A stretch of 64,000 nt of DNA, taken from Streptomyces sp. HUAS MG91 (GTDB lineage: Bacteria; Actinomycetota; Actinomycetes; Streptomycetales; Streptomycetaceae). The DNA lies in contig NZ_CP159534.1 of NCBI RefSeq assembly GCF_040529335.1, positions 5,704,001 through 5,768,000 of the forward strand. The letters are read 5' to 3'. The position numbers were made by a program, and so were the translations under genes. Position 1 is the first letter of the stretch, and every line of letters starts with the position of its first letter. Below, piece by piece: positions 43,776 to 61,771 of this stretch. Under the pieces are notes generated by a model that worked only from the letters and a program-made list of their open reading frames with translations, did no database searches and was not told where the DNA came from.

Positions 43776-44501
43776 ATGCGCCCGCCCGCCTCCCACCACC
43801 GCCCTGCTCGAGGCGCTACGCGCCGCCCCTTTCGATTCCTGATCGTGGAGGACGAGAAGCGCCTCGCCGTGTCGCTCGCCAAAGGGCTGACCGCCGAGGG
43901 GTACGCCGTCGACGTGGTCCACGACGGCCTCGAAGGACTGCACCGCGCGAGCGAGTCGCCGTACGACCTGATCGTCCTGGACATCATGCTGCCCGGCATG
44001 AACGGCTACCGGGTCTGCGCCGCCCTGCGCGCCGCCGGGAACGACGTGCCGATCCTGATGCTCACCGCCAAGGACGGCGAGTACGACGAGGCCGAGGGGC
44101 TGGACACGGGCGCCGACGACTACCTCACCAAGCCGTTCTCGTACGTCGTGCTCGTCGCGCGTGTGAAGGCGCTGCTGCGGCGGCGCGGCAGCGCGGGCCG
44201 GGCCAACCCCGTGCACACTGTCGGTCCGTACGCCGTGGACACCGCCGCGCGCCGGGTCACGCACGCCGACGACGGCGAAGTGCCGCTCACCGCGAAGGAG
44301 TTCGCGGTGCTCGAACAGCTCGTCGCGCGGGCCGGCGAGGTGGTCTCCAAGGGCGACATCCTGGAACACGTGTGGGACTTCGCCTACGAGGGCGATCCGA
44401 ACATCGTCGAGGTCTACGTCAGCGCCCTGCGCCGCAAGCTCGGCGCGTCCCTCATCCGGACCGTGCGCGGCGCCGGCTACCGGCTGGAGATCCCGCGATG
44501 A
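43776..44501 (+). CDS. rapA1: OmpR-family response regulator (RapA1-like)
   Basis: A 241-residue response regulator. The receiver domain starts at FLIVEDEKRLAVSLAKG, has the phospho-Asp in DLIVLDIMLPGMNG and the Lys in DDYLTKPFSY. The winged-helix domain ends VEVYVSALRRKLG...VRGAGYRLEIPR. Its stop overlaps the kinase start (ATGA). By gene order next to an absC-like gene it corresponds to S. coelicolor SCO5403 (RapA1), reported to affect actinorhodin and a polyketide. The symbol is inferred from synteny. Confidence 0.88.
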   Translation: MRPPASHHRPARGATRRPFRFLIVEDEKRLAVSLAKGLTAEGYAVDVVHDGLEGLHRASESPYDLIVLDIMLPGMNGYRVCAALRAAGNDVPILMLTAKDGEYDEAEGLDTGADDYLTKPFSYVVLVARVKALLRRRGSAGRANPVHTVGPYAVDTAARRVTHADDGEVPLTAKEFAVLEQLVARAGEVVSKGDILEHVWDFAYEGDPNIVEVYVSALRRKLGASLIRTVRGAGYRLEIPR

Positions 44502-45934
44502 AGCGGCGTCTCCTCGGCTCCGTACGGTCGCGTGCCGCCCTCGCCGCCACCCTCGTCGTCGCCGTGGCCCTGGTCGCGGCCGGTGCCGCCGTGCTGCTCG
44601 CCCTGCGCGACAACCTCGGCGAACAGGCCTCGGCGGGCGCCGACTCCGCCGCGCGCCGGGTCGCCACCTCTCTGGTCGGCGGGGTCGCGCCCGACAGCCT
44701 CGACCTCGACGACGAGGACCATCCGGTGCAGGTCGTCGACGACGACGGCAGGCTGATCGCCGCCACCGAGGACCTGGAGCGGATCTCCGGCGCCGGGACG
44801 GACGCCGTCAAGCCGGTCGCCGCCCGGCGGGACGACGACGGGGACGACGACCGGCACGGCGGCCGGGGCGGGGGCGGTGACGACGACGGCGCCGGCGGCA
44901 CGGTCTCCGGCTCCACCGACTACTCCGACGGCAGCGCCACCGTGGACGGCGACAGCGCCGCCTACCGGTTCGCCGAGGTGCACGTCGACGACACCGCGTA
45001 CGGCGATCTGACCGTGTACGCGGGTTCCTCGCTGGCCGCCGAGCAGAGCGCCGTGACGACGACGAAGACCGCCATGCTGATCGGCTTCCCGCTGCTGCTC
45101 GTGGTCGTCGGCGGCGTCACGTATGTGGTGACCCGGCGCGCGCTGCGGCCCGTCGAGGGCATCCGCGCCGAGATGGCCGCGATCACCGCCTCGCAGGACC
45201 TCGGCCGCCGGGTGCCGCAGCCGGACACGCACGACGAGGTCGCCCGGCTGGCCGCGACCACCAACGAGACGCTGGCCGCGCTCCAGGAGTCGGTCGAGCG
45301 GCAGCGGCGGTTCGTCGCCGACGCCTCGCACGAGCTGCGCAGCCCCATCGCCTCGCTGCGCACCCAGCTGGAGGTCGGCGCCGCCCATCCGGAGCTGCTG
45401 GACGTCCCCGGCGCCGTCGAGGACACGGTGCGGCTCCAGGAACTCGCCGCGGACCTGCTGCTGCTAGCCCGGCTCGACGCGGGGGAGCGGCCCGGCGGCG
45501 GTGAAGTGGATCTGGCGGCCCTGGCGCGCGAGGAGCTGTCCCAGCGCACCGGCGACCGGCTGCCCGTCACGGTGGAGTCGGCGCGGTCCGCCCGGGTCAC
45601 CGGCTCGCGCGGGCAGCTGGCCCGGGTGCTCGGCAATCTCGTGGACAACGCACAGCGGCACGCACGCACGGAGGTCGTCGTCGACGTGGGCGTCGAGGGG
45701 GGAGCGGCGGTCCTCACCGTCGCGGACGACGGCGCCGGGGTGCCGGCGGAGGAGCGCGAGCGGATCTTCGAGCGGTTCGTCCGGCTCGACGACGCGCGCT
45801 CCCGGGACGGGGGCGGGGCGGGTCTCGGACTGGCCATCGCCCGGGATGTGGCCGTGCGGCACGGCGGCACCCTCACGGTGCGCGCCGCGCCGCAGGGCGG
45901 GGCACTTTTCGAGCTGCGGCTGCCCGCGAACTGA
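44498..45934 (+). CDS. rapA2: Sensor histidine kinase with acidic extracellular domain (RapA2-like)
   Basis: A 478-residue kinase. Two membrane helices (about residues 12-35 and 191-212) flank an extracellular domain of about 155 residues. That domain contains a striking Asp/Gly/Arg stretch (DDDGDDDRHGGRGGGGDDDG) at about 112-131. HAMP, then HisKA with His278 in VADASHELRSP, then HATPase with LGNLVDNAQRHA, DDGAGVP and GAGLGLAIARDV. The acidic loop suggests binding of cations or cationic peptides. It corresponds in order to S. coelicolor SCO5404 (RapA2). Confidence 0.88.
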   Translation: MKRRLLGSVRSRAALAATLVVAVALVAAGAAVLLALRDNLGEQASAGADSAARRVATSLVGGVAPDSLDLDDEDHPVQVVDDDGRLIAATEDLERISGAGTDAVKPVAARRDDDGDDDRHGGRGGGGDDDGAGGTVSGSTDYSDGSATVDGDSAAYRFAEVHVDDTAYGDLTVYAGSSLAAEQSAVTTTKTAMLIGFPLLLVVVGGVTYVVTRRALRPVEGIRAEMAAITASQDLGRRVPQPDTHDEVARLAATTNETLAALQESVERQRRFVADASHELRSPIASLRTQLEVGAAHPELLDVPGAVEDTVRLQELAADLLLLARLDAGERPGGGEVDLAALAREELSQRTGDRLPVTVESARSARVTGSRGQLARVLGNLVDNAQRHARTEVVVDVGVEGGAAVLTVADDGAGVPAEERERIFERFVRLDDARSRDGGGAGLGLAIARDVAVRHGGTLTVRAAPQGGALFELRLPAN

Positions 45935-49728: not shown

Positions 49729-51498
49729 GTGCGGCCTGAGGGCTATGACTACGACACCTACAGCAGACTGGCGGGCCCGCTCACCGAGCCGCCCGCCGAC
49801 GGCTACCGGGTGCAGTACACCTCACTCCTCTCCCGTGAACCCCACCGAATACGCGCGATCCTGCTGATGACGCTCGCCCCGGTGCTCACCGGGATCCTGC
49901 TCGTCTATCTGGTGTGGCCCAGCCACTGGGTGGAGCGTGAGGGCGGCGCCCGCTGGCTCGTCCAGCTCGACATCGTGATGCTGGTGTCGATCGGCCTCAT
50001 CGAGCTGTTCATGGTCGTCAACGTCATCTCCATCGCCCACGCGACGATGGTGGCCAGGGACCCCGTCCCGGTCCGCCCCGAACCCGGCACCCGGGTCGCG
50101 TTCCTGACGACGTACGTGCCCGGCAAGGAACCCCTGGCGATGGTGCGCGCCACGCTGGAGGGTGCCGTCCGCATCACCCACGACGGCCCGCTCGACGTGT
50201 GGCTGCTCGACGAGGGCGACGACCCCCGGGCCCGCGCCCTCTGCGCCGAGCTGGGCGTCCGGCACTTCACGCGGCACGGCGTCGAGGAGTGGAACCGCGC
50301 CAAGGGCGCCCACAAGACCCGTACCAAGCACGGCAACTACAACGCCTGGCTCGCCGCGCACCACGCCGACTACGACTTCTTCGCGTCCGTCGACACCGAC
50401 CACGTACCGGTGCCGGAGTTCCTGGAGCGGATGCTGGGCTACTTCCGCGACCCGGACGTCGCGTTCGTCGTCGGGCCGCAGGTCTACGGCAACTACGACT
50501 CACCGGTCACCAAGGCCGCCGAGTCCCAGCAGTTCCTCTTCCACGCGCTGATCCAGCGGGCCGGCAACCGCTACCGGGCCCCCATGTTCGTCGGCACCAA
50601 CAACGTCGTGCGGATCAGCGCCCTGAAGCAGATCGGCGGCTTCGTCGACTCGATCACCGAGGACATGGCGACCGGGTTCGAGATCCACCGGCACGCCAAC
50701 CCGGCCACCGGCGTCAAGTGGCGCTCGGTCTACACCCCCGACGTGCTCGCCGTCGGTGAGGGTCCCGCCTCCTGGACGGACTTCTTCACCCAGCAGCTGC
50801 GCTGGTCGCGCGGGACGTACGAGACGCTGTTCAAGCAGTACTGGAAGGCGCCGTTCAGCATGCCGGCCGGCCGCCTCTTCTCGTACTCGATGATGCTCGT
50901 CTACTACCCGATGACGGCCGTCAACTGGCTCCTCGGCGTGCTGAGCTGCGTGCTGTTCCTCTGGTTCGGCGCGTCCGGCACCCAGGTCTCCGCCTCCGTG
51001 TGGCTGATGCTCTACAGCGACGCCGCGGCCCTCCAGATCGGGCTGTACCTGTGGAACCGGCGGCACAACGTCTCGCCGCACGAGCCCGAGGGCTCCGGCG
51101 GTCTCGCGGGCATGGCCATGTCGGCGATCTCCGCGCCGATCTACCTCAAGTCGCTGGGCGCCGCGCTGCTGCGCCGCCCGTCCCGCTTCGTCGTCACCCC
51201 GAAGGGCGGCGACGCCACCGCAGACCGGATGCTGACCTTCCGCATCCATCTCTTCTGGGCGGGCGTGCTGGCCGTGTCGCTGGCCGCGTCGGTCGTCCTC
51301 GACCACACGCACGTGGCCATGCGGACCTGGGCGGTCCTCGCCCTGTGCATCGCCCTCGCGCCCCCGGTGGTGTGGAGCGTCGCGCAGCGCCGCGCGGCGG
51401 CCGCGCTCGCCGGGTCCGGGACGACGGCGCCGGCTGAGAAGCCCGAGCCCGCCCTCGCCGGCCCGCGGGTCTCCAGCACGAGCACAGGAGGGAACTGA
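49729..51498 (+). CDS. Cellulose-synthase-like family 2 glycosyltransferase (CslA-like)
   Basis: A 589-residue processive GT2 enzyme. Two N-terminal helices (about 48-66 and 84-106) precede the catalytic domain with DEGDD, DTDHVPVPE, the TED motif in SITEDMATGFE and the product-binding QQLRW. Four or five C-terminal membrane helices follow. This is the pattern of bacterial cellulose synthase and of CslA, which makes a beta-glucan at hyphal tips. GGAGGG precedes GTG 49729. The downstream glxA-like gene starts four bases after its stop, as in known cslA-glxA pairs. The exact polymer is inferred, not shown. Confidence 0.9.
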   Translation: MRPEGYDYDTYSRLAGPLTEPPADGYRVQYTSLLSREPHRIRAILLMTLAPVLTGILLVYLVWPSHWVEREGGARWLVQLDIVMLVSIGLIELFMVVNVISIAHATMVARDPVPVRPEPGTRVAFLTTYVPGKEPLAMVRATLEGAVRITHDGPLDVWLLDEGDDPRARALCAELGVRHFTRHGVEEWNRAKGAHKTRTKHGNYNAWLAAHHADYDFFASVDTDHVPVPEFLERMLGYFRDPDVAFVVGPQVYGNYDSPVTKAAESQQFLFHALIQRAGNRYRAPMFVGTNNVVRISALKQIGGFVDSITEDMATGFEIHRHANPATGVKWRSVYTPDVLAVGEGPASWTDFFTQQLRWSRGTYETLFKQYWKAPFSMPAGRLFSYSMMLVYYPMTAVNWLLGVLSCVLFLWFGASGTQVSASVWLMLYSDAAALQIGLYLWNRRHNVSPHEPEGSGGLAGMAMSAISAPIYLKSLGAALLRRPSRFVVTPKGGDATADRMLTFRIHLFWAGVLAVSLAASVVLDHTHVAMRTWAVLALCIALAPPVVWSVAQRRAAAALAGSGTTAPAEKPEPALAGPRVSSTSTGGN

Positions 51499-51501
51499 CC
51501 C

Positions 51502-53472
51502 ATGGCCTTCAACAGCTACCGGCCTTCCCAGAAGATGAAGAAGACCGTCCTGGGCGCGGGCGGCATCGCCCTCCTCGTCGGCCTCAACGCCCCGGCCGCC
51601 TGGACCTTCGCCTCCGAGAAGTACGAGGACTGGAAGATCGCCCAGCCCGGCTACAAGGCCCAGTACGGCTCGTGGTCGCAGGTCGACATCCCCGACCGGT
51701 TCCGTACCAACGCGATCCACGCGGCGCTGCTGCACACCGGCAAGGTGCTGATCGTGGCGGGCTCCGGCAACGAGCAGAAGAAGTTCGACGCCGGATCGTT
51801 CGACACCGTCCTGTGGGACCCGAAGGCGAACACCTTCAAGAAGATCGACACCCCCGAGGACTTCTTCTGCTCGGGACACGCCGCGCTCCCCGACGGCCGG
51901 ATGCTCGTGGCCGGCGGCACCGCCCGCTACGAACTCCTCGACGGCGAGGTGAAGCGGGCCGGCGGCGGCATGCGCGTCAAGAACGAGAGCCCCGACGCAC
52001 CGGTGGTCCTGAAGAAGGGGACGAGGTTCCGCTCGCCGGACGGCGTCGAGTACGTGTCGAAGTTCGACGTGACCGTGCCCAAGGCCAAGCGCTCCTACGA
52101 CATCAGCTACAACCGCGCCGGTGTCATGCAGCCCTGGAAGACGAAGATCAAGGCGAGCGAGGCCCGCGTCTTCGTCGAGGCGGTCGCCGACGGCAAGCAG
52201 TACGAGACGTCGAAGCAGGCCCAGTACGAGATCGAGGGCCTCACGGGCAAGGACGCCGACAACGCGTACGGGCTCTCCGAGAAGATCACCATGGAGAAGC
52301 AGGACTTCCAGGGGATCAAGGCCGCGTACGAGTTCGACCCGGTCGCCGAGAAGTACGTGCCCGTGGACCCGATGCAGAAGGCCCGCTGGTACCCCACGCT
52401 CGTCGGCCTGGAGGACGGCAAGGTGCTCGCCGTCTCCGGACTCGACGACGTCGGCGTCATCGACCCCGGGGACAACGAGATCTACGACCCGAAGACCAAG
52501 AAGTGGTCGATGGGCCCCAAGCGGTACTTCCCGACCTACCCGGCGCTGTTCCTGACCAAGGGCGGCAAGCTCTTCTACCCGGCCTCCAACGCCGGGTACG
52601 GGCCCGCCGAGAAGGGCCGGGAGCCCGGCCTGTGGGATCTCAAGACCAACAAGTTCGAGAAGGTCCCGGGCCTCACGGACGGGGACGAGACGGAGACGTC
52701 GGCGTCGCTGCTGCTGCCCCCGGCGCAGGACCAGAAGGTGATGATCCTGGGCGGCGGAGGCGTCGGAGAGTCCGAGCGGGCGACGCCGCGCACCGCGGTC
52801 GTCGACCTGAAGGAGGACAGCCCCCGCTTCAAGGAGGGGCCGAACCTGCCGCAGGGCACCCGGTACCTGAACAGCGTGATCATGCCGGACGACTCGGTCT
52901 TCACGTCCAACGGCTCGTCCGACTACCGCGGGCGCGGCGCGAGCAACATCCTCGCGGCGCAGTTCTACGACCCCAAGAAGAACGCCTTCCGCGAGGCGGC
53001 CTCGCCCAAGGTCGGCCGCAACTACCACTCGGAGGCGCTGCTGCTGCCCGACGGCCGGGTGGTGACCTTCGGCTCCGACCCGCTCTTCGACGACCAGCAG
53101 AACACCAAGCTGGGCCACTTCGAGCAGCGCATGGAGATCTTCACGCCGCCCGCGCTGCACAAGGGCGGGGACCGGCGCCCGGTCCTCGGTGAGGGCCCGG
53201 AGACCCTGCCCGCCGATCACCGGGCGACGTTCCGGACGGACGCCGCCGACCGGATCGTGAAGGCGCGGCTGATGCGCCCGTCCGCCGTGACCCACACGAC
53301 GGACGTCGAGCAGCGCTCGATCGAGCTGGGCCTGAGCAGGCGCGAGGGGCAGATCACGGTCGACGTGCCGACCGACCGGGCCCTGGTCCCACCCGGCTGG
53401 TACATGCTGTTCGCGACGGACGCGGACGGGGTGTCGTCCGAGGCCAAGTGGGTCAAGGTCGGCGACGACTGA
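51502..53472 (+). CDS. glxA: GlxA-like copper radical oxidase
   Basis: A 656-residue membrane-anchored kelch-propeller oxidase. GlxA oxidises primary alcohols at the copper-radical site and is needed for deposition of the CslA glucan. An N-terminal anchor (about residues 12-34) is followed by seven-bladed repeats (GGxxLY...D type). The full active site is visible: Cys123 in FFCSGHA and Tyr297 (next to Trp296) in RWYPT for the Cys-Tyr cofactor, with Tyr508-His509 in RNYHSE and His598 in VTHTTD as copper ligands. It is translationally coupled to the GT2 gene. Confidence 0.93.
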   Translation: MAFNSYRPSQKMKKTVLGAGGIALLVGLNAPAAWTFASEKYEDWKIAQPGYKAQYGSWSQVDIPDRFRTNAIHAALLHTGKVLIVAGSGNEQKKFDAGSFDTVLWDPKANTFKKIDTPEDFFCSGHAALPDGRMLVAGGTARYELLDGEVKRAGGGMRVKNESPDAPVVLKKGTRFRSPDGVEYVSKFDVTVPKAKRSYDISYNRAGVMQPWKTKIKASEARVFVEAVADGKQYETSKQAQYEIEGLTGKDADNAYGLSEKITMEKQDFQGIKAAYEFDPVAEKYVPVDPMQKARWYPTLVGLEDGKVLAVSGLDDVGVIDPGDNEIYDPKTKKWSMGPKRYFPTYPALFLTKGGKLFYPASNAGYGPAEKGREPGLWDLKTNKFEKVPGLTDGDETETSASLLLPPAQDQKVMILGGGGVGESERATPRTAVVDLKEDSPRFKEGPNLPQGTRYLNSVIMPDDSVFTSNGSSDYRGRGASNILAAQFYDPKKNAFREAASPKVGRNYHSEALLLPDGRVVTFGSDPLFDDQQNTKLGHFEQRMEIFTPPALHKGGDRRPVLGEGPETLPADHRATFRTDAADRIVKARLMRPSAVTHTTDVEQRSIELGLSRREGQITVDVPTDRALVPPGWYMLFATDADGVSSEAKWVKVGDD

Positions 53473-53487
53473 GCCCGGCGGCCCGCG

Positions 53488-54531
53488 TCACGTGTGCGCG
53501 GCGCGGGCCAGCCCCAGCGCGTACTCCGCCCACCAGGTGCCTGCCGCGGGTCCGCCCCGGCAGGTGCCGTCCGACTCCCCGGGCCGCTTGACCCACAGGT
53601 ACGCGTCGACCAGCGGATCCCCGGTCCGGGTGGTCGGCGCGGCGCCGAGGGCACGGCCCGGCGGGTTGCACCAGCCGTCGGCGCCGGCCGGTGAGTAGGG
53701 TCCCGCGCCGTTGCGGCTGGTGTCCACCACGAAGTGGGCGCCGCCGAGCAGCTGCGAGAGCTGCTTGCCGTACGAGGAACTTGCCCGGTCCGTCTGGAAG
53801 TTCGAGACGTTCAGGGAGAAGCCGTCGGCCCGCTCGACGCCCGCCCGGCGCAGCGGCTCGACGAGTTTGGCCGCGTCGGGGATCCAGGCGGGGTTCCCGG
53901 CGTCGACGTACACCTTGGTGTTCGGCTGCTGCTTCAGGCGGTCGATCGCCGAGCCGATCAGCTGGTAGCGCTCCTCCCGGTACTCCTCCGGGGTGCAGCC
54001 GTCGACGATGTGCCCGAGGGCGTCCGGTTCCAGCACGACCAGCGCCTTGGCGTCCCCGATGCCCGTCGCGAACGCGTCGACCCACTGGTGGTAGAAGTCC
54101 GCGCTGTGCGCGCCGCCCGCCGAGTGCTGCCCGCAGTCGCGGTGCGGGATGTTGTACGCGACCAGGACCAGCGTCTTGTCCGCCTTCTTCGCCTTCTCGC
54201 CGGCCTCCGCGATCACCGGCCGCGGATAGTCGCCCGGCGCCCACATGCCCTGCGGGTGCTGGGCGATCCGCCGGATCACGGCGGCGTCCGAGGCGCGGCC
54301 CTGCTTCTCCCACCGCTCGGCCTGGACGGCGGCGGCGGACGCGGGGTCGACCCAGAACGGCGAGGTGTCGGCGGTGCCGGGAGAGGGCGCGGTCCGTCCG
54401 GCGGCCTCGCGGGGGCCGGCCTGCTCGGAATCCCCGCCGGAGCAGGCGGTGGCGAGCCCGGCGAGGACGAGCGCGGCCGTGCCGAGCGCGAGCGTGCGGG
54501 ACGGTGTGCGGCGGATGGTCGGGACGGGCAT
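53488..54531 (-). CDS. Family 6 glycoside hydrolase (endoglucanase, CslZ-like)
   Basis: A 347-residue exported GH6 enzyme. The N-terminus has a signal sequence ending LAGLATACSGG, a possible lipobox with Cys30. The catalytic domain has VLVAYNIPHRDCGQHSAGG, the acid Asp in ALVVLEPDALGHI and HFVVDTSRNGAGP. It converges on the GlxA gene with only 15 bases between stops. It is probably the trimming glucanase of the same glucan system (the CslZ role), although on the opposite strand. Confidence 0.93.
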   Translation of the reverse strand: MPVPTIRRTPSRTLALGTAALVLAGLATACSGGDSEQAGPREAAGRTAPSPGTADTSPFWVDPASAAAVQAERWEKQGRASDAAVIRRIAQHPQGMWAPGDYPRPVIAEAGEKAKKADKTLVLVAYNIPHRDCGQHSAGGAHSADFYHQWVDAFATGIGDAKALVVLEPDALGHIVDGCTPEEYREERYQLIGSAIDRLKQQPNTKVYVDAGNPAWIPDAAKLVEPLRRAGVERADGFSLNVSNFQTDRASSSYGKQLSQLLGGAHFVVDTSRNGAGPYSPAGADGWCNPPGRALGAAPTTRTGDPLVDAYLWVKRPGESDGTCRGGPAAGTWWAEYALGLARAAHT

Positions 54532-57531: not shown

Positions 57532-58889
57532 CTATGTGGCCGTGGTCGGGGGGAAGGCGAGTCGGAACAGGGCCCCGCCGCCCGGGGCCCGCTCGGCGGA
57601 GAGCCGGGCGCCGTGGGCCTCGGCGATCTGCCGGGCCATCGCGAGGCCGAGCCCCGACCCGGGCAGCGCCCGCGACGCCTCCGCGCGGTAGAACCGGTCG
57701 AAGACATAGGGGAGGTCCTCCGGGGCGATCCCCGGACCGTGGTCCCGGACGGTCAGCTCGCCCGCAGACAGGACGACCTCGACCGAGGCCCCCGGCGGAC
57801 TGAACTTCGCCGCGTTGCCGAGCAGGTTCGACAGGAGACGGGAGAGGCGGGACGGCACGCCGGGCAGGGTCGTCGACGCCGCCGACGGCGCGACCGTCAG
57901 GGCGAAGGCGACCCGGGGCCAGTGCGCCCGTGCCGCCTCCACCGCGTGCGCGACGAGCGGCGCGAGCGGCACCTCCTCGACGAGCGGCGTCGGCTCCTCG
58001 TCCCGGGCCAGCTCGATCAAGTCGTTGACCAGGGACGTGACTTCGTGGATCTGGCGGCCGAGCGCCGCCGACGCCCGATCGCGCTGGGCAGGCGTCAAGC
58101 GCTCGGCACGGGCCAGGAGCTCGGCGTTCGTGCGGAGCGCCGTCAGCGGCGTACGGAGTTCGTGGGAGGCGTCGGCGACGAGGCGTCGGCGGGCCGCGAC
58201 CGAGTCCTCCAGTTCGCCCAGCATGGTGTTGAACGAGGCGGCGAGGCGTGTGAGTTCGTCCCTGCGGCCCGGCGGCAGGTCGATGCGGGTACGGGCGTCG
58301 CGGGTCGCCGCGATCCGTTCCGCCGTCGCCGTCAGCCGGGCCACCGGAGCGAGCCCGCGCCGCGCGACCCCGTAGCCGCCGAGCGCCGCCAGCGCGACGC
58401 CCGCCACGCTGATCGCCGCGAACAGCGCGGTGGCCTGCCGCACCCCCTTGGCCGTGGGGTCCGACCGCAGCGCCACCTGCAGCGCCTTGCCCTCGCCCGC
58501 CGTGTACGGCGTCGTCAGCATCCGCACCGGATGCCCCTGGAGCGTGAGGTTCGTGTAGTACGGGGCGTGCGCGTCGGCCGCGACCGCGCGGGCGGTGTCC
58601 GTGACGGGCAGCAGATACTCCTGGCCGGACGGGTCGTCCGCCGCGTCGGCCGGGACCAGCTGGGCGCAGGCCGGAGCCGCCAGATAGCGGCACTCGCCGG
58701 ACAGCACCCCGGCCGGCTCGCCCCGGTTCTGCTGGGTGGCCAGGGTCGCCGCCTGGGTGAGCTGGAGATCGAGCTGGTGCCCGAGCTCGTAACGGATGAC
58801 GGCGCGGCCGTGCACACGCCCACCGTGATCAGCGCGACCGTGACGGTCGCCAGGAGCGCGAGCCGGGTGCGCAGCGGCAGCCGGGTCAC
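57532..58889 (-). CDS. Sensor histidine kinase with an apparent single-base frameshift near its N-terminus
   Basis: The kinase core is intact: HAMP, HisKA in RRRLVADASHELRTPLTAL, HATPase with LLSNLLGNAAKFSP, DHGPGIAPEDLPYVFDRFYR and GSGLGLAMARQIAEAHG. The natural start is GTG 58889, which overlaps the response-regulator stop by four bases (GTGA) and encodes the first membrane helix RLALLATVTVALITVG. That frame is out of phase with the rest. A frame switch is needed near 58800-58816; one added base in the GCCGCGCCGTC stretch restores a continuous protein of about 450 residues. Without it, translation would have to begin at an internal GTG (58815) and the first helix would be lost. Sequencing error or a real mutation are both possible. 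Confidence 0.8.
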
Positions 58890-59578
58890 GGCGTGCCCAG
58901 CCGGTAGCCGACGCCGTGGACCGTGTGCAGGAGCCGCGCCTCCCCGGCCGTCTCCAGCTTGCGCCGCAGATAACCCACGTACACGGCGAGCGAGTTGGAG
59001 TCGGGGCCGAAGTCGCGGCCCCACACCGCCTCCTGGACGACCTCGCGCGGCAGCACCTGCCCGGCGTTGCGCACCAGGACCTCCAGGAGCGCGAACTCGG
59101 TGCGGCTGAAGTCGATGGTCCGCCCGCCGCGCCGGCCCGTGCGGGTCGCCGGGTCCAGGACCAGGTCGCCGTAGGCGAGCGGGTCGTCCGGCTCCGGTTC
59201 GGGAGCGGCGCGGCGCAGCAGCGCCCGTACGCGCGCGGTCAGTTCGTCGAGTGCGAACGGCTTCACCAGGTAGTCGTCGGCGCCCGCGTCCAGCCCGTCC
59301 ACCCGCTCGCTCACCGAGTCGAGCGCGGTGAGGACGAGCACCGGGGTGGCGCGCATCCGGCGGCACACCGCGAGCCCGTCGAGGACCGGCATCATCACGT
59401 CGAGGACGACCGCGTCCGGCTCGGAGCGGGCCAGCGCGGTCAGCGCCCGCTGCCCGTCGGCCGCGGCCGTGACCCGGTAGCCCTCCACGGTCAGCGCGTC
59501 CTCGACGGCCGACCGGACCTCGGGGTCGTCGTCCACGACCAGGATCCGGGCCGGCGCGGGTGTGTTCCCTGTCGTCAT
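58886..59578 (-). CDS. OmpR-family response regulator
   Basis: A 230-residue regulator. The receiver has ILVVDDDPEVRSAVEDAL, phospho-Asp in DAVVLDVMMPVLDG and Lys in DDYLVKPFALDEL. The winged helix has TIDFSRTEFALLEVLVRN and LAVYVGYLRRKLE...VHGVGYRLG. It overlaps the kinase gene by four bases. It is divergent from the MurG-like gene with 64 bases between starts, so it probably controls both directions. Confidence 0.94.
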   Translation of the reverse strand: MTTGNTPAPARILVVDDDPEVRSAVEDALTVEGYRVTAAADGQRALTALARSEPDAVVLDVMMPVLDGLAVCRRMRATPVLVLTALDSVSERVDGLDAGADDYLVKPFALDELTARVRALLRRAAPEPEPDDPLAYGDLVLDPATRTGRRGGRTIDFSRTEFALLEVLVRNAGQVLPREVVQEAVWGRDFGPDSNSLAVYVGYLRRKLETAGEARLLHTVHGVGYRLGTP

Positions 59579-59600
59579 GGCACAAAGGTGTCAAACGCGG

Positions 59601-59617
59601 CTCTTAAAACCCTCTTA
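59601..59617. promoter_or_regulatory. 11-bp-spaced direct repeats in the TCS/MurG-like divergent promoter
   Basis: CTCTTA occurs at 59601-59606 and 59612-59617, exactly 11 bases apart, in CTCTTAAAACCCTCTTAGAC. This is the usual layout of a site for a dimer of an OmpR-family regulator. The divergent gap of 64 bases contains nothing else obvious. Confidence 0.65.
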
Positions 59618-59642
59618 GACCGGTCCGTGACGCTCGACCGTC

Positions 59643-60776
59643 ATGCGAACACCTCTCTCCGTCGTCATCGGCGCGGGCGGCACCGGGGGCCACATCTACC
59701 CGGGGCTCGCCCTCGCCGACGCGCTGCGCCGGGCCGTCCCCGACGCGGTGATCTCGTTCGTCGGCACCGAACGCGGCCTGGAGACCCGGCTCATCCCGGC
59801 CGCCGGGTACCGGCTGCACACGGTCGACATGATCCCGTTCGACCCGTCCCTCGGCGCCCGGCGCTATCTGCTGCCCGCGGACCTCGTGCGCTCCGGCGCC
59901 CAGTGCCGGACCATCCTGCGCGAGCAGCGCGCCCAGGTCGCCGTCGGCATGGGCGGCTACCCGAGCGCGCCCGTGATCGTCGGCGCCCGGATGGCCGGCC
60001 TGCCCAGCCTCATCCACGAGTCCAACGCGGTCCCGGGCCGCGCCAACCGCTTCGCCGCCCGCCTCACCCCGCACATCGCCGTCGCCTTCGACCGCAGCCG
60101 CGCCCATCTGCCGGGCGGAACAGGGGCGTTCACCACCGGTATGCCGATCGCCGCCTCCCTCGCGGACCTGGACCGGCCCGCCCTGCGGGCCACCGCGCGC
60201 CGGGAACTCGGCGTCCCGGACGGCGCCCGGCTCGTCCTCGTCAACGGCGGCAGCCTGGGCGCGGCCCGGCTGACGGAGGCGGCGGTCGGCCTGGCCGCGC
60301 GCTGGCGGGGCCGCACGGATGTGCGGCTGCTGGTGAAGACCGGCCCGGCGGCCCTGGAGGACACCCGGCGCCGCCTGCACGACACCCCCGCCGTCGCCGT
60401 GCCCTACCTCGACCGGATGGACCTCGCCTACGCCGCCGCCGACCTCGTGGTGTGCCGGGCGGGCTCCGCGACCGTCGCCGAACTCGCCACGACGCGGGTC
60501 CCGGCCGTCCTCGTCCCCTACCCCCACGCCCCCGGCGACCACCAGACCCACAACGCGCGGGTGCTCTCCGACGCGGGCGCCGGACTGCTGCTCGCGGACG
60601 CGGACACCACGCCCGACACACTCGCGGCCCTCGTCGAACCGCTGCTCGCCGATCCGGCGCGGCTCGCGGCGATGTCGGCGGCTGCGCCCGCGGGGCCCCA
60701 CGCCAGGGCGGCCGACCTCCTGGCACGCCACGTACGCGAACTGGCAGGACATTCAAAGGAGTTGCAGTACATATGA
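59643..60776 (+). CDS. MurG-like UDP-GlcNAc transferase (second MurG)
   Basis: A 377-residue GT28 enzyme with all main MurG signatures: GAGGTGGHIYPGLALA, GMGGYPSAPVIV, IHESNAVPGRANRFAA, NGGSLGAARL, CRAGSATVAEL and PYPHAPGDHQTHNA. It is not in the dcw division cluster, so it is probably a specialised copy that acts on lipid I or another lipid-linked acceptor. There is no ribosome-binding site before the ATG, only 64 bases from the divergent regulator. Its stop overlaps the next start (ATGA). It is likely induced by the adjacent two-component system. Confidence 0.92.
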   Translation: MRTPLSVVIGAGGTGGHIYPGLALADALRRAVPDAVISFVGTERGLETRLIPAAGYRLHTVDMIPFDPSLGARRYLLPADLVRSGAQCRTILREQRAQVAVGMGGYPSAPVIVGARMAGLPSLIHESNAVPGRANRFAARLTPHIAVAFDRSRAHLPGGTGAFTTGMPIAASLADLDRPALRATARRELGVPDGARLVLVNGGSLGAARLTEAAVGLAARWRGRTDVRLLVKTGPAALEDTRRRLHDTPAVAVPYLDRMDLAYAAADLVVCRAGSATVAELATTRVPAVLVPYPHAPGDHQTHNARVLSDAGAGLLLADADTTPDTLAALVEPLLADPARLAAMSAAAPAGPHARAADLLARHVRELAGHSKELQYI

Positions 60777-61771
60777 GCACCACATCCAGCTGGGCGGACC
60801 GCACCGTTCTGGTCACCGGGGCGGAGGGCTTCATCGGCTCGACGCTCGTCGACCTGCTCCTCGACGCGGGCGCCCGCGTCCGGGCCTTCGTCCACTACAA
60901 GCCGTACGCCGAGAAGGGGCACCTCGCGCACCTCCTCGACGACCCCCGGGTGGAGATCCTGGCGGGCGACGTCCGCGACCCGGGCCGCGTCGCGGACGCC
61001 GTCTCCGGCTGCGACACGGTCTTCCACCTCGCCGCGCTGATCGGCATCCCGTACTCGTACGACTCCCCGGGCGCGTACGTCCAGACGAACGTCGTCGGCA
61101 CCGAGAACATCGCCGAGGCCTGCCGCAGGCACTCCGTGCGCCGCCTGGTCCACACCTCCACGAGCGAGGTCTACGGCACCGCGCTGACGGCCCCGATCTC
61201 CGAGGAGCACCCCCTCCAGCCGCAGTCCCCGTACTCCGCGTCGAAGATCGGCGCGGACATGATGGCGCTGTCCCACTGGCACGCGTTCGAGCTCCCGGTC
61301 ACGGTGGTCCGCCCCTTCAACACGTACGGACCACGCCAGTCGGCCCGAGCCGTGATCCCCACCATCCTGGCCCAACTCCACTCCGGGGCACGGGAGATCA
61401 AGCTCGGCTCGCTCACCCCGACCCGCGACTTCACGTACGTCTCCGACACGGCGAGAGGATTCATGGCCCTGGCCCGGTGCGACCGCGCCCTCGGCCAGGT
61501 GGTCAACCTCGGTACGGGGCAGGAGATCTCGATCGGCGACCTGGCGCAGGCGCTCATCAGGGCATCGGGCCGCGACGCCCGCGTCGTCGTCGACCCGTCA
61601 CGGCTGCGCCCGTCGGGGAGCGAGGTGCAGCGGCTGCTGTCGGACAACGGGCGGGCGCGTGAATGGGCCGGGTGGGAGCCGGAGTTCACGCTGGACGAAG
61701 GACTGAAGCGCACGTCGCAGTGGGTGGCGGAGAACCTCGACCGCTTCGCGCCGGGGCGGTATCAGGTCTGA
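60773..61771 (+). CDS. NAD-dependent nucleotide-sugar 4,6-dehydratase/epimerase, LegB-like
   Basis: A 332-residue extended SDR enzyme. The NAD motif is TGAEGFIGS and the active site is TSTSEVYGT with SPYSASKIGADMMALS (Y-x3-K). The stretches FHLAALIGIPYSYDSPGAYVQTNVVGTENIAEA and RPFNTYGPRQSARAVIPTI, with KLGSLTPTRDFTYVSDTARGF, closely resemble LegB-type GlcNAc 4,6-dehydratases that begin legionaminic or bacillosamine-like sugar synthesis. It is translationally coupled to the MurG-like gene with AAGGAG upstream. No aminotransferase or later sugar genes follow. Confidence 0.9.
   Translation: MSTTSSWADRTVLVTGAEGFIGSTLVDLLLDAGARVRAFVHYKPYAEKGHLAHLLDDPRVEILAGDVRDPGRVADAVSGCDTVFHLAALIGIPYSYDSPGAYVQTNVVGTENIAEACRRHSVRRLVHTSTSEVYGTALTAPISEEHPLQPQSPYSASKIGADMMALSHWHAFELPVTVVRPFNTYGPRQSARAVIPTILAQLHSGAREIKLGSLTPTRDFTYVSDTARGFMALARCDRALGQVVNLGTGQEISIGDLAQALIRASGRDARVVVDPSRLRPSGSEVQRLLSDNGRAREWAGWEPEFTLDEGLKRTSQWVAENLDRFAPGRYQV

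Follow-up and report, generated by a model that had tools for sequence, protein, structure and literature searches.

The window analysed here, a stretch of 64,000 nucleotides, is part of the 8.6 Mb genome of Streptomyces sp. HUAS MG91 and carries two gene pairs that diverge from a common control region. On the reverse strand lie the open reading frame of a sensor kinase (57532-58815; HAMP, HisKA and HATPase_c domains in Pfam) and the gene of an OmpR-family response regulator (58886-59578; Response_reg and Trans_reg_C). The forward strand carries the gene of a GT28 glycosyltransferase named MurG2 (59643-60776; Glyco_transf_28 and Glyco_tran_28_C) and that of a LegB-type extended SDR, a predicted NDP-GlcNAc 4,6-dehydratase (60773-61771; GDP_Man_Dehyd/Epimerase). 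The stop codon of MurG2 overlaps the start codon of the SDR in the motif ATGA, and the region between the two pairs counts 64 bases (59579-59642, without strand), in agreement with the earlier note, which had described a two-component system sharing a 64-base gap with a coupled MurG and dehydratase. The idea of a shared divergent promoter in this gap was strengthened by the presence of a conserved direct repeat with an 11-base period, TCTTAAAACCCTCTTA, at 59602-59617 of the forward strand. It has the form TCTTA-N6-TCTTA and is the single match to this pattern in the window, for 0 expected. OmpR-family regulators bind direct repeats of 11-base period, and the repeat is a putative box for the regulator.

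The kinase frame of the window lacks the first transmembrane helix, which is encoded in another reading frame (58816-58889, reverse strand). This helix is intact and in frame in 37 of 37 relatives outside Arthrobacter, and the Arthrobacter frame also starts with such a helix; the window kinase is thus either frameshifted or carries a sequencing error. Two cysteines of the sensor domain were invariant in all 15 aligned kinases. The best model for the regulator was RpaB (193 bits), and the best VanR model reached 141.2 bits against a cut-off of 350; a kinship with VanRS, whose type of control the locus had been said to resemble, was thus not supported. A second two-component pair lies at 43812-45925 of the window, its members being 40% and 35% identical to the kinase and regulator beside MurG2. 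Elsewhere in the window (49729-54531), a glycosyltransferase, a GlxA-like protein of the galactose oxidase type and a GH6 glycoside hydrolase (GH6 by Pfam) are grouped, an arrangement which we take to resemble the cslA-glxA cluster of Streptomyces.

MurG2 is the second MurG of this genome, whose canonical murG (G000:C1:2307092-2308162) is 41% identical to it. Both GT28 domains were over their Pfam cut-offs (PF03033, 97.6 bits; PF04101, 122 bits). The best NCBIfam model was MurG, TIGR01133, with 244.1 bits for an equivalog cut-off of 250.25, and the best model for the SDR was LegB, TIGR04180, with 431.9 bits for a cut-off of 475, so that the assignment to MurG-type and LegB-type enzymes stands at the level of best models, each slightly under its cut-off. 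The MurG2 proteins from a Frankiaceae MAG (L085), an Acidimicrobiales MAG (L086) and Arthrobacter sp. GMC3 (L087) were likewise under the TIGR01133 cut-off. In an alignment of 16 MurG2 rows, His17 (the His of GGxGGH), the acceptor Glu126, Glu280 and Gln301 of the donor site, and Asn304 were kept throughout; the GGS loop was present in 15 rows and reads GAS in L086. Three of the motifs are reported to be important, namely this His, the Glu of HEQN and the GGS loop (PMC8993221, PMC8256705). The clade is marked by Lys232, Met103 and the usual loss of an Asn at position 211 that is present in 37 of 37 canonical rows. In a MurG tree of 56 rows, including three fragments (L084, 72 aa; L098, 82 aa; L153, 134 aa), the 17 MurG2 rows fell on one side of a branch with a support of 100/95.

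In the SDR, Thr-Ser-Glu and Tyr-x3-Lys were invariant in all 20 aligned rows, and the aligned DesIV dehydratase has Thr-Asp-Glu in place of Thr-Ser-Glu. These are active-site residues, the Glu being a mark of dehydratases or decarboxylases, and their invariance favours dehydration. The structure model of the SDR (pLDDT 90.7) had as its nearest solved folds a mixture of UDP-GlcNAc/GalNAc 4-epimerases and 4,6-dehydratases, tied in Z; the modelled fold alone cannot tell a dehydratase from an epimerase. The MurG-linked SDRs formed one group, comprising 18 of the 54 rows of the SDR tree, with a support (88/72) weaker than that for MurG2. Sister to this group was an SDR (L183:5628-6614 of genome G463) encoded on a 9.4 kb contig without MurG. 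A second LegB-like subfamily, about 50-53% identical, was observed at loci L062-L071, with no MurG2 in the stretch, and relatives of this SDR type often adjoin a nucleotidyltransferase.

The distribution of the genes was surveyed in genome sets that represent a draw and not a census. Among 150 Streptomyces genomes, the window genome included, MurG2 relatives (73-100% identity) and SDR relatives (80-100%) occurred in the same 30. Some SDR match at E <= 1e-60 was present in 58 of the 150, those beyond the 30 being 50-54% identical. The order kinase, regulator, MurG2, SDR was kept in all 30 genomes that bear the pair, which argues against a chance arrangement; in G071 the gap between MurG2 and the regulator measures about 1.2 kb, and the kinase of G012 is matched only in part. 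When MurG2 alone served as the query, the 12 best loci among the matches listed (L076-L087) all had the SDR adjoining or one gene off, and an SDR match (E <= 1e-12, in the sequence stretch around each gene) was found at none of the other 68 MurG loci listed. Among these listed matches, the four-gene order was seen in 9 of 9 loci of Streptomyces, Kitasatospora GAS204B and 'Actinobacteria bacterium OV450' (L080, from the same genome as G100, was omitted from the counts), with a broken kinase match in L078 and L079. Laboratory strains that carry the locus include S. lavendulae CCM 3239 and S. flavofungini JCM 4753. Arthrobacter sp. GMC3 (L087) has the four-gene module as well as a canonical dcw murG. 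The expectation of a gene set conserved among actinobacteria was therefore borne out, in Streptomyces and also in Kitasatospora and Arthrobacter.

The neighbours of the module vary. Of 37 loci, 20 adjoin a methylmalonyl-CoA mutase-like gene and 9 share another neighbour; no fifth conserved gene was found among the genes called at these loci by a simple script that misses genes. This includes aminotransferases, whose absence had been pointed out before; in 10 genomes, the LegC-type aminotransferase model TIGR04181 gave no match over its cut-off, with weak matches in 9. A class survey yielded an SDR match at E <= 1e-85 in 43 of 394 genomes, the loci of 28 of which were examined. Thirteen of the 43 were MurG2-linked, 10 of them Streptomyces and 3 members of a family designated f86; the remaining examined SDRs were LegB-like genes of about 46-54% identity, often beside a nucleotidyltransferase. 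A survey of the phylum gave SDR matches in 21 of 396 genomes, of which 4 were MurG2-linked; the match of G463 (64%) was not linked. The SDR lineage can thus occur without MurG2, and no MurG2 was seen without the SDR. Judged by gene order and homology, MurG2 and the SDR form a fixed pair, each being one lineage of its own family, and together with the kinase and the regulator they make up a conserved, relocating four-gene module.

A different setting for the pair was found in the dcw cluster. The Frankiaceae MAG shows the order murF-mraY-murD-ftsW-MurG2-nucleotidyltransferase-SDR-murC-ftsQ-ftsZ, and genome G194 has the same collinear dcw order; in the Acidimicrobiales MAG, MurG2, the nucleotidyltransferase and the SDR are inverted between ftsW and murC (L086:1531-4758). 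Each of 12 genomes of family f86 gave one MurG match, which was of the MurG2 type only in 4 and canonical only in 8. The f86 genes of the MurG2 type are 74-100% identical to that of L085 and are followed by the nucleotidyltransferase and the SDR, with murC observed behind the SDR in G598 and G650. The canonical f86 genes lie between ftsW and murC, are 39-42% identical to L085 MurG2 and fall outside the MurG2 clade in the 56-row tree. The four f86 genomes with MurG2 are 91, 86, 86 and 68% complete, and a hidden murG is possible, three of them being only 68-86% complete. A search with PF04101 detected a single protein in each of the two MAGs (L085, L086). In G194, which is 100% complete, it gave a weak 29.5-bit match besides the dcw protein; no second full MurG was found by this search in the three genomes. 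L085 MurG2 has 1026 relatives at E <= 1e-70, the best 120 of which are 54-100% identical. The catalytic part of the dcw nucleotidyltransferase was nearest to mannose-1-phosphate guanylyltransferase and MurU models, far under their cut-offs; the N-terminal part gave a match to the end region of KpsF/GutQ proteins, where CBS domains are located. The window genome gave no full match to this type of nucleotidyltransferase. By gene position, MurG2, the nucleotidyltransferase and the SDR occupy the murG slot of the dcw cluster in some actinobacteria; in our reading, a xenologue arriving with a sugar-nucleotide cassette probably took over from murG at its original site.

These observations bear on the acceptor of MurG2. 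Streptomyces keeps its canonical murG, and Agl24, a related glycosyltransferase, is reported to use another acceptor (PMC8993221); both would suit an enzyme that makes no lipid II but uses a different lipid-linked acceptor in place of lipid I, for example in building a wall glycopolymer. However, the same clade holds the dcw murG slot elsewhere, and His17 and the acceptor Glu126 are kept in all 16 rows, which makes this an unlikely explanation. The dcw position makes a lipid II the most likely product of MurG2, and the constancy of its SDR partner suggests a modified amino-sugar. The latter point separates this reading from one in which MurG2 is a back-up lipid II synthase working on ordinary UDP-GlcNAc, the SDR serving another, merely co-induced envelope sugar. 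Such a role has a precedent in MglA of Kitasatospora viridifaciens, in whose presence murG is reported to be dispensable and the muropeptides normal (PMC8092295), and the donor-site motifs of MurG2 are ordinary. We regard it as conceivable but doubtful, given that MurG2 and the SDR stay together in both genomic settings, different as these are.

The repeat of the control region was then compared among loci. TCTTA-N6-TCTTA was exact in 37 of 38 loci, with one mismatch in Kitasatospora; the scan covered the whole 1.2 kb gap for L055 (G071) and the last 200 bases for the others. In the gap of Arthrobacter L087, scored apart from the 38 loci, the repeat was absent. A scan of 8 genomes gave 12 matches, 8 of which lie directly before MurG2. 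The reversed pattern gave 9, and the case for the repeat consequently rests on its position and not on its number. The extra sites have a different spacer in G000 and G134, and in G064 and G137 they precede homologous genes with a GH129-type domain, the genes of GH129-like secreted proteins being located at L263:5040-7067 and L264:3938-5977 with TCTTA-N6-TCTTA upstream. A GH129-like gene was present in 18 of the 150 Streptomyces genomes, 12 of which are among the 30 with MurG2 (Fisher p = 4e-6, ignoring kinship); it was absent from the window genome. Within the 400 bases upstream of this gene, the best box in the 12 MurG2 genomes had 0, 1 and 2 mismatches in 9, 2 and 1 cases, respectively, and in the 6 genomes without MurG2 it had 0 (G016), 1 (G018) or 3-4 mismatches (four genomes). 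In simulated upstream regions 1 mismatch was reached in 0.04% and 2 in 1.9%. The repeat between regulator and MurG2 is thus conserved in sequence and also occurs before the GH129-like gene in part of the genomes, where it may have the same function. The hydrolase gene of G146 follows the SDR at a distance of about 5.5 kb.

Four MurG2-negative genomes with the hydrolase gene were examined further. In G016 and G058 a related kinase pair lies no more than 7 kb from it, and the box of G058 is instead placed ahead of the regulator; the stretch around the hydrolase gene showed no kinase pair in G018 and G051. Related kinase pairs without MurG2 near a GH129-like gene were observed at L285:16587-17977 and L287:2216-4395, and in L287 the preceding gene resembles, by eye, an MMPL-type transporter. 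As the kinase pair exists without MurG2, its signal may concern surface glycans more widely. The hydrolase also enters a reading in which the SDR works as a 4-epimerase, MurG2 transfers GalNAc or a similar sugar to lipid I, and the GH129-like enzyme, under the same control, acts on related sugars. The family GH129 is named for alpha-GalNAc hydrolases, and 4-epimerases tie with dehydratases among the nearest folds of the SDR. Against this stand LegB as the best-scoring family, the invariant Glu of Thr-Ser-Glu, and the type of linkage, which is alpha for the bonds cleaved by GH129 enzymes and beta for those formed by MurG; we consider this reading very unlikely.

We propose, with a probability of roughly one half, that the two-component system switches on a dedicated alternative unit for making lipid II. 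What the sequences show directly is the conservation, the linkage, the dcw position and the box; the signal, the regulator binding, the donor nucleotide and the reactions are inferred as follows. Envelope stress, or extracellular redox or folding trouble, might activate the kinase through its two sensor-domain cysteines; this is a guess, although in CutS such cysteines are reported to control activity (PMC12802291). The phosphorylated regulator would bind the repeat and induce MurG2 and the SDR and, in some strains, the hydrolase. The SDR would make or tailor a sugar for MurG2, oxidizing C4 of NDP-GlcNAc with loss of the 6-OH to give a 4-keto-6-deoxy intermediate, as does LegB with its reported substrate GDP-GlcNAc (PMC7439481). 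MurG2 would then join the resulting amino-sugar, or GlcNAc, to lipid I, and lipid II could carry a GlcNAc analogue of the 6-deoxy or 4-keto-derived type. This analogue may be a general subunit after reduction, or a non-extendable cap at the start of a glycan strand. Because a growing strand requires the 4-OH of the incoming sugar, a 4-keto sugar that has not been reduced could serve only to begin one, and use as a general subunit would require a reductase encoded elsewhere. Since an unreduced 4-keto sugar is not extendable and the dcw-type genomes appear to rely on MurG2, the enzyme must also accept a donor giving extendable lipid II; MglA makes normal peptidoglycan without a needed partner (PMC8092295), and MurG2 may do so too.

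More tentatively, and as a possibility that falls clearly short of even odds, we suggest a peptidoglycan with a dedicated non-GlcNAc sugar, in which MurG2 would use an NDP-amino-sugar made by the SDR (in the dcw lineages together with the linked nucleotidyltransferase) to form lipid II with a 6-deoxy-type GlcNAc analogue. In Streptomyces and Arthrobacter the two-component system would call for this when needed, and in actinobacterial lineages whose murG the cassette has replaced it would be constitutive. The common view takes MurG to be the universal lipid II synthase, and GlcNAc to be a first sugar of the subunit that does not vary. With a switchable, SDR-tied MurG, placed in the murG slot of some lineages, a change of backbone sugar at the lipid II stage becomes directly testable. 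Such a change, if true, would matter for the sensitivity to lysozyme and for antibiotics binding to lipid II or to the UDP-GlcNAc site. The module also constitutes a compact regulon with a predicted operator.

Several known systems share features with this locus. CutRS and CssRS, secretion-stress systems, are Streptomyces two-component systems that also have two conserved sensor-domain cysteines (PMC12802291), but the cysteines are spaced by 18 residues in CutS and by 8 in the kinase described here, and CutR is reported to recognize TAWATAAA, as opposed to TCTTA-N6-TCTTA, and to have other targets (PMC12802291). VanO-type operons likewise are actinobacterial units in which wall-precursor genes under regulation are joined by an additional murG-like gene (PMC8698665), whereas the present locus is without a van ligase, dehydrogenase or dipeptidase. 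LegB cassettes share with the locus the best NCBIfam model of the SDR, and the nucleotidyltransferase that many LegB-like genes have as a neighbour is also part of the dcw arrangement; the SDR is, however, under the cut-off, the locus has no conserved nonulosonic-acid genes, and the partner is MurG2. The earlier note knew of no described system with this exact set. This holds for the full module, in that searches of the open-licence literature gave no two-component module paired with a LegB-type enzyme, no such box and no dcw replacement, but not for the alternative lipid II synthase, as MglA is known (PMC8092295). Alternative MurG proteins are already known and widespread in Streptomycetaceae, MurG-like genes being reported in 38% of strains and in many groups (PMC8092295). 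MglA resembles MurG2 in being a second, non-dcw MurG of this family, and it can replace MurG (PMC8092295). It is 31.2% identical to S. coelicolor MurG (PMC8092295), compared with 41% between MurG2 and the MurG of its own genome, and the primer letters given in that paper suggest a protein start different from that of MurG2. Finally, a term search of the main text of that paper met with no mention of a dehydratase or two-component partner for MglA, whereas MurG2 has both.
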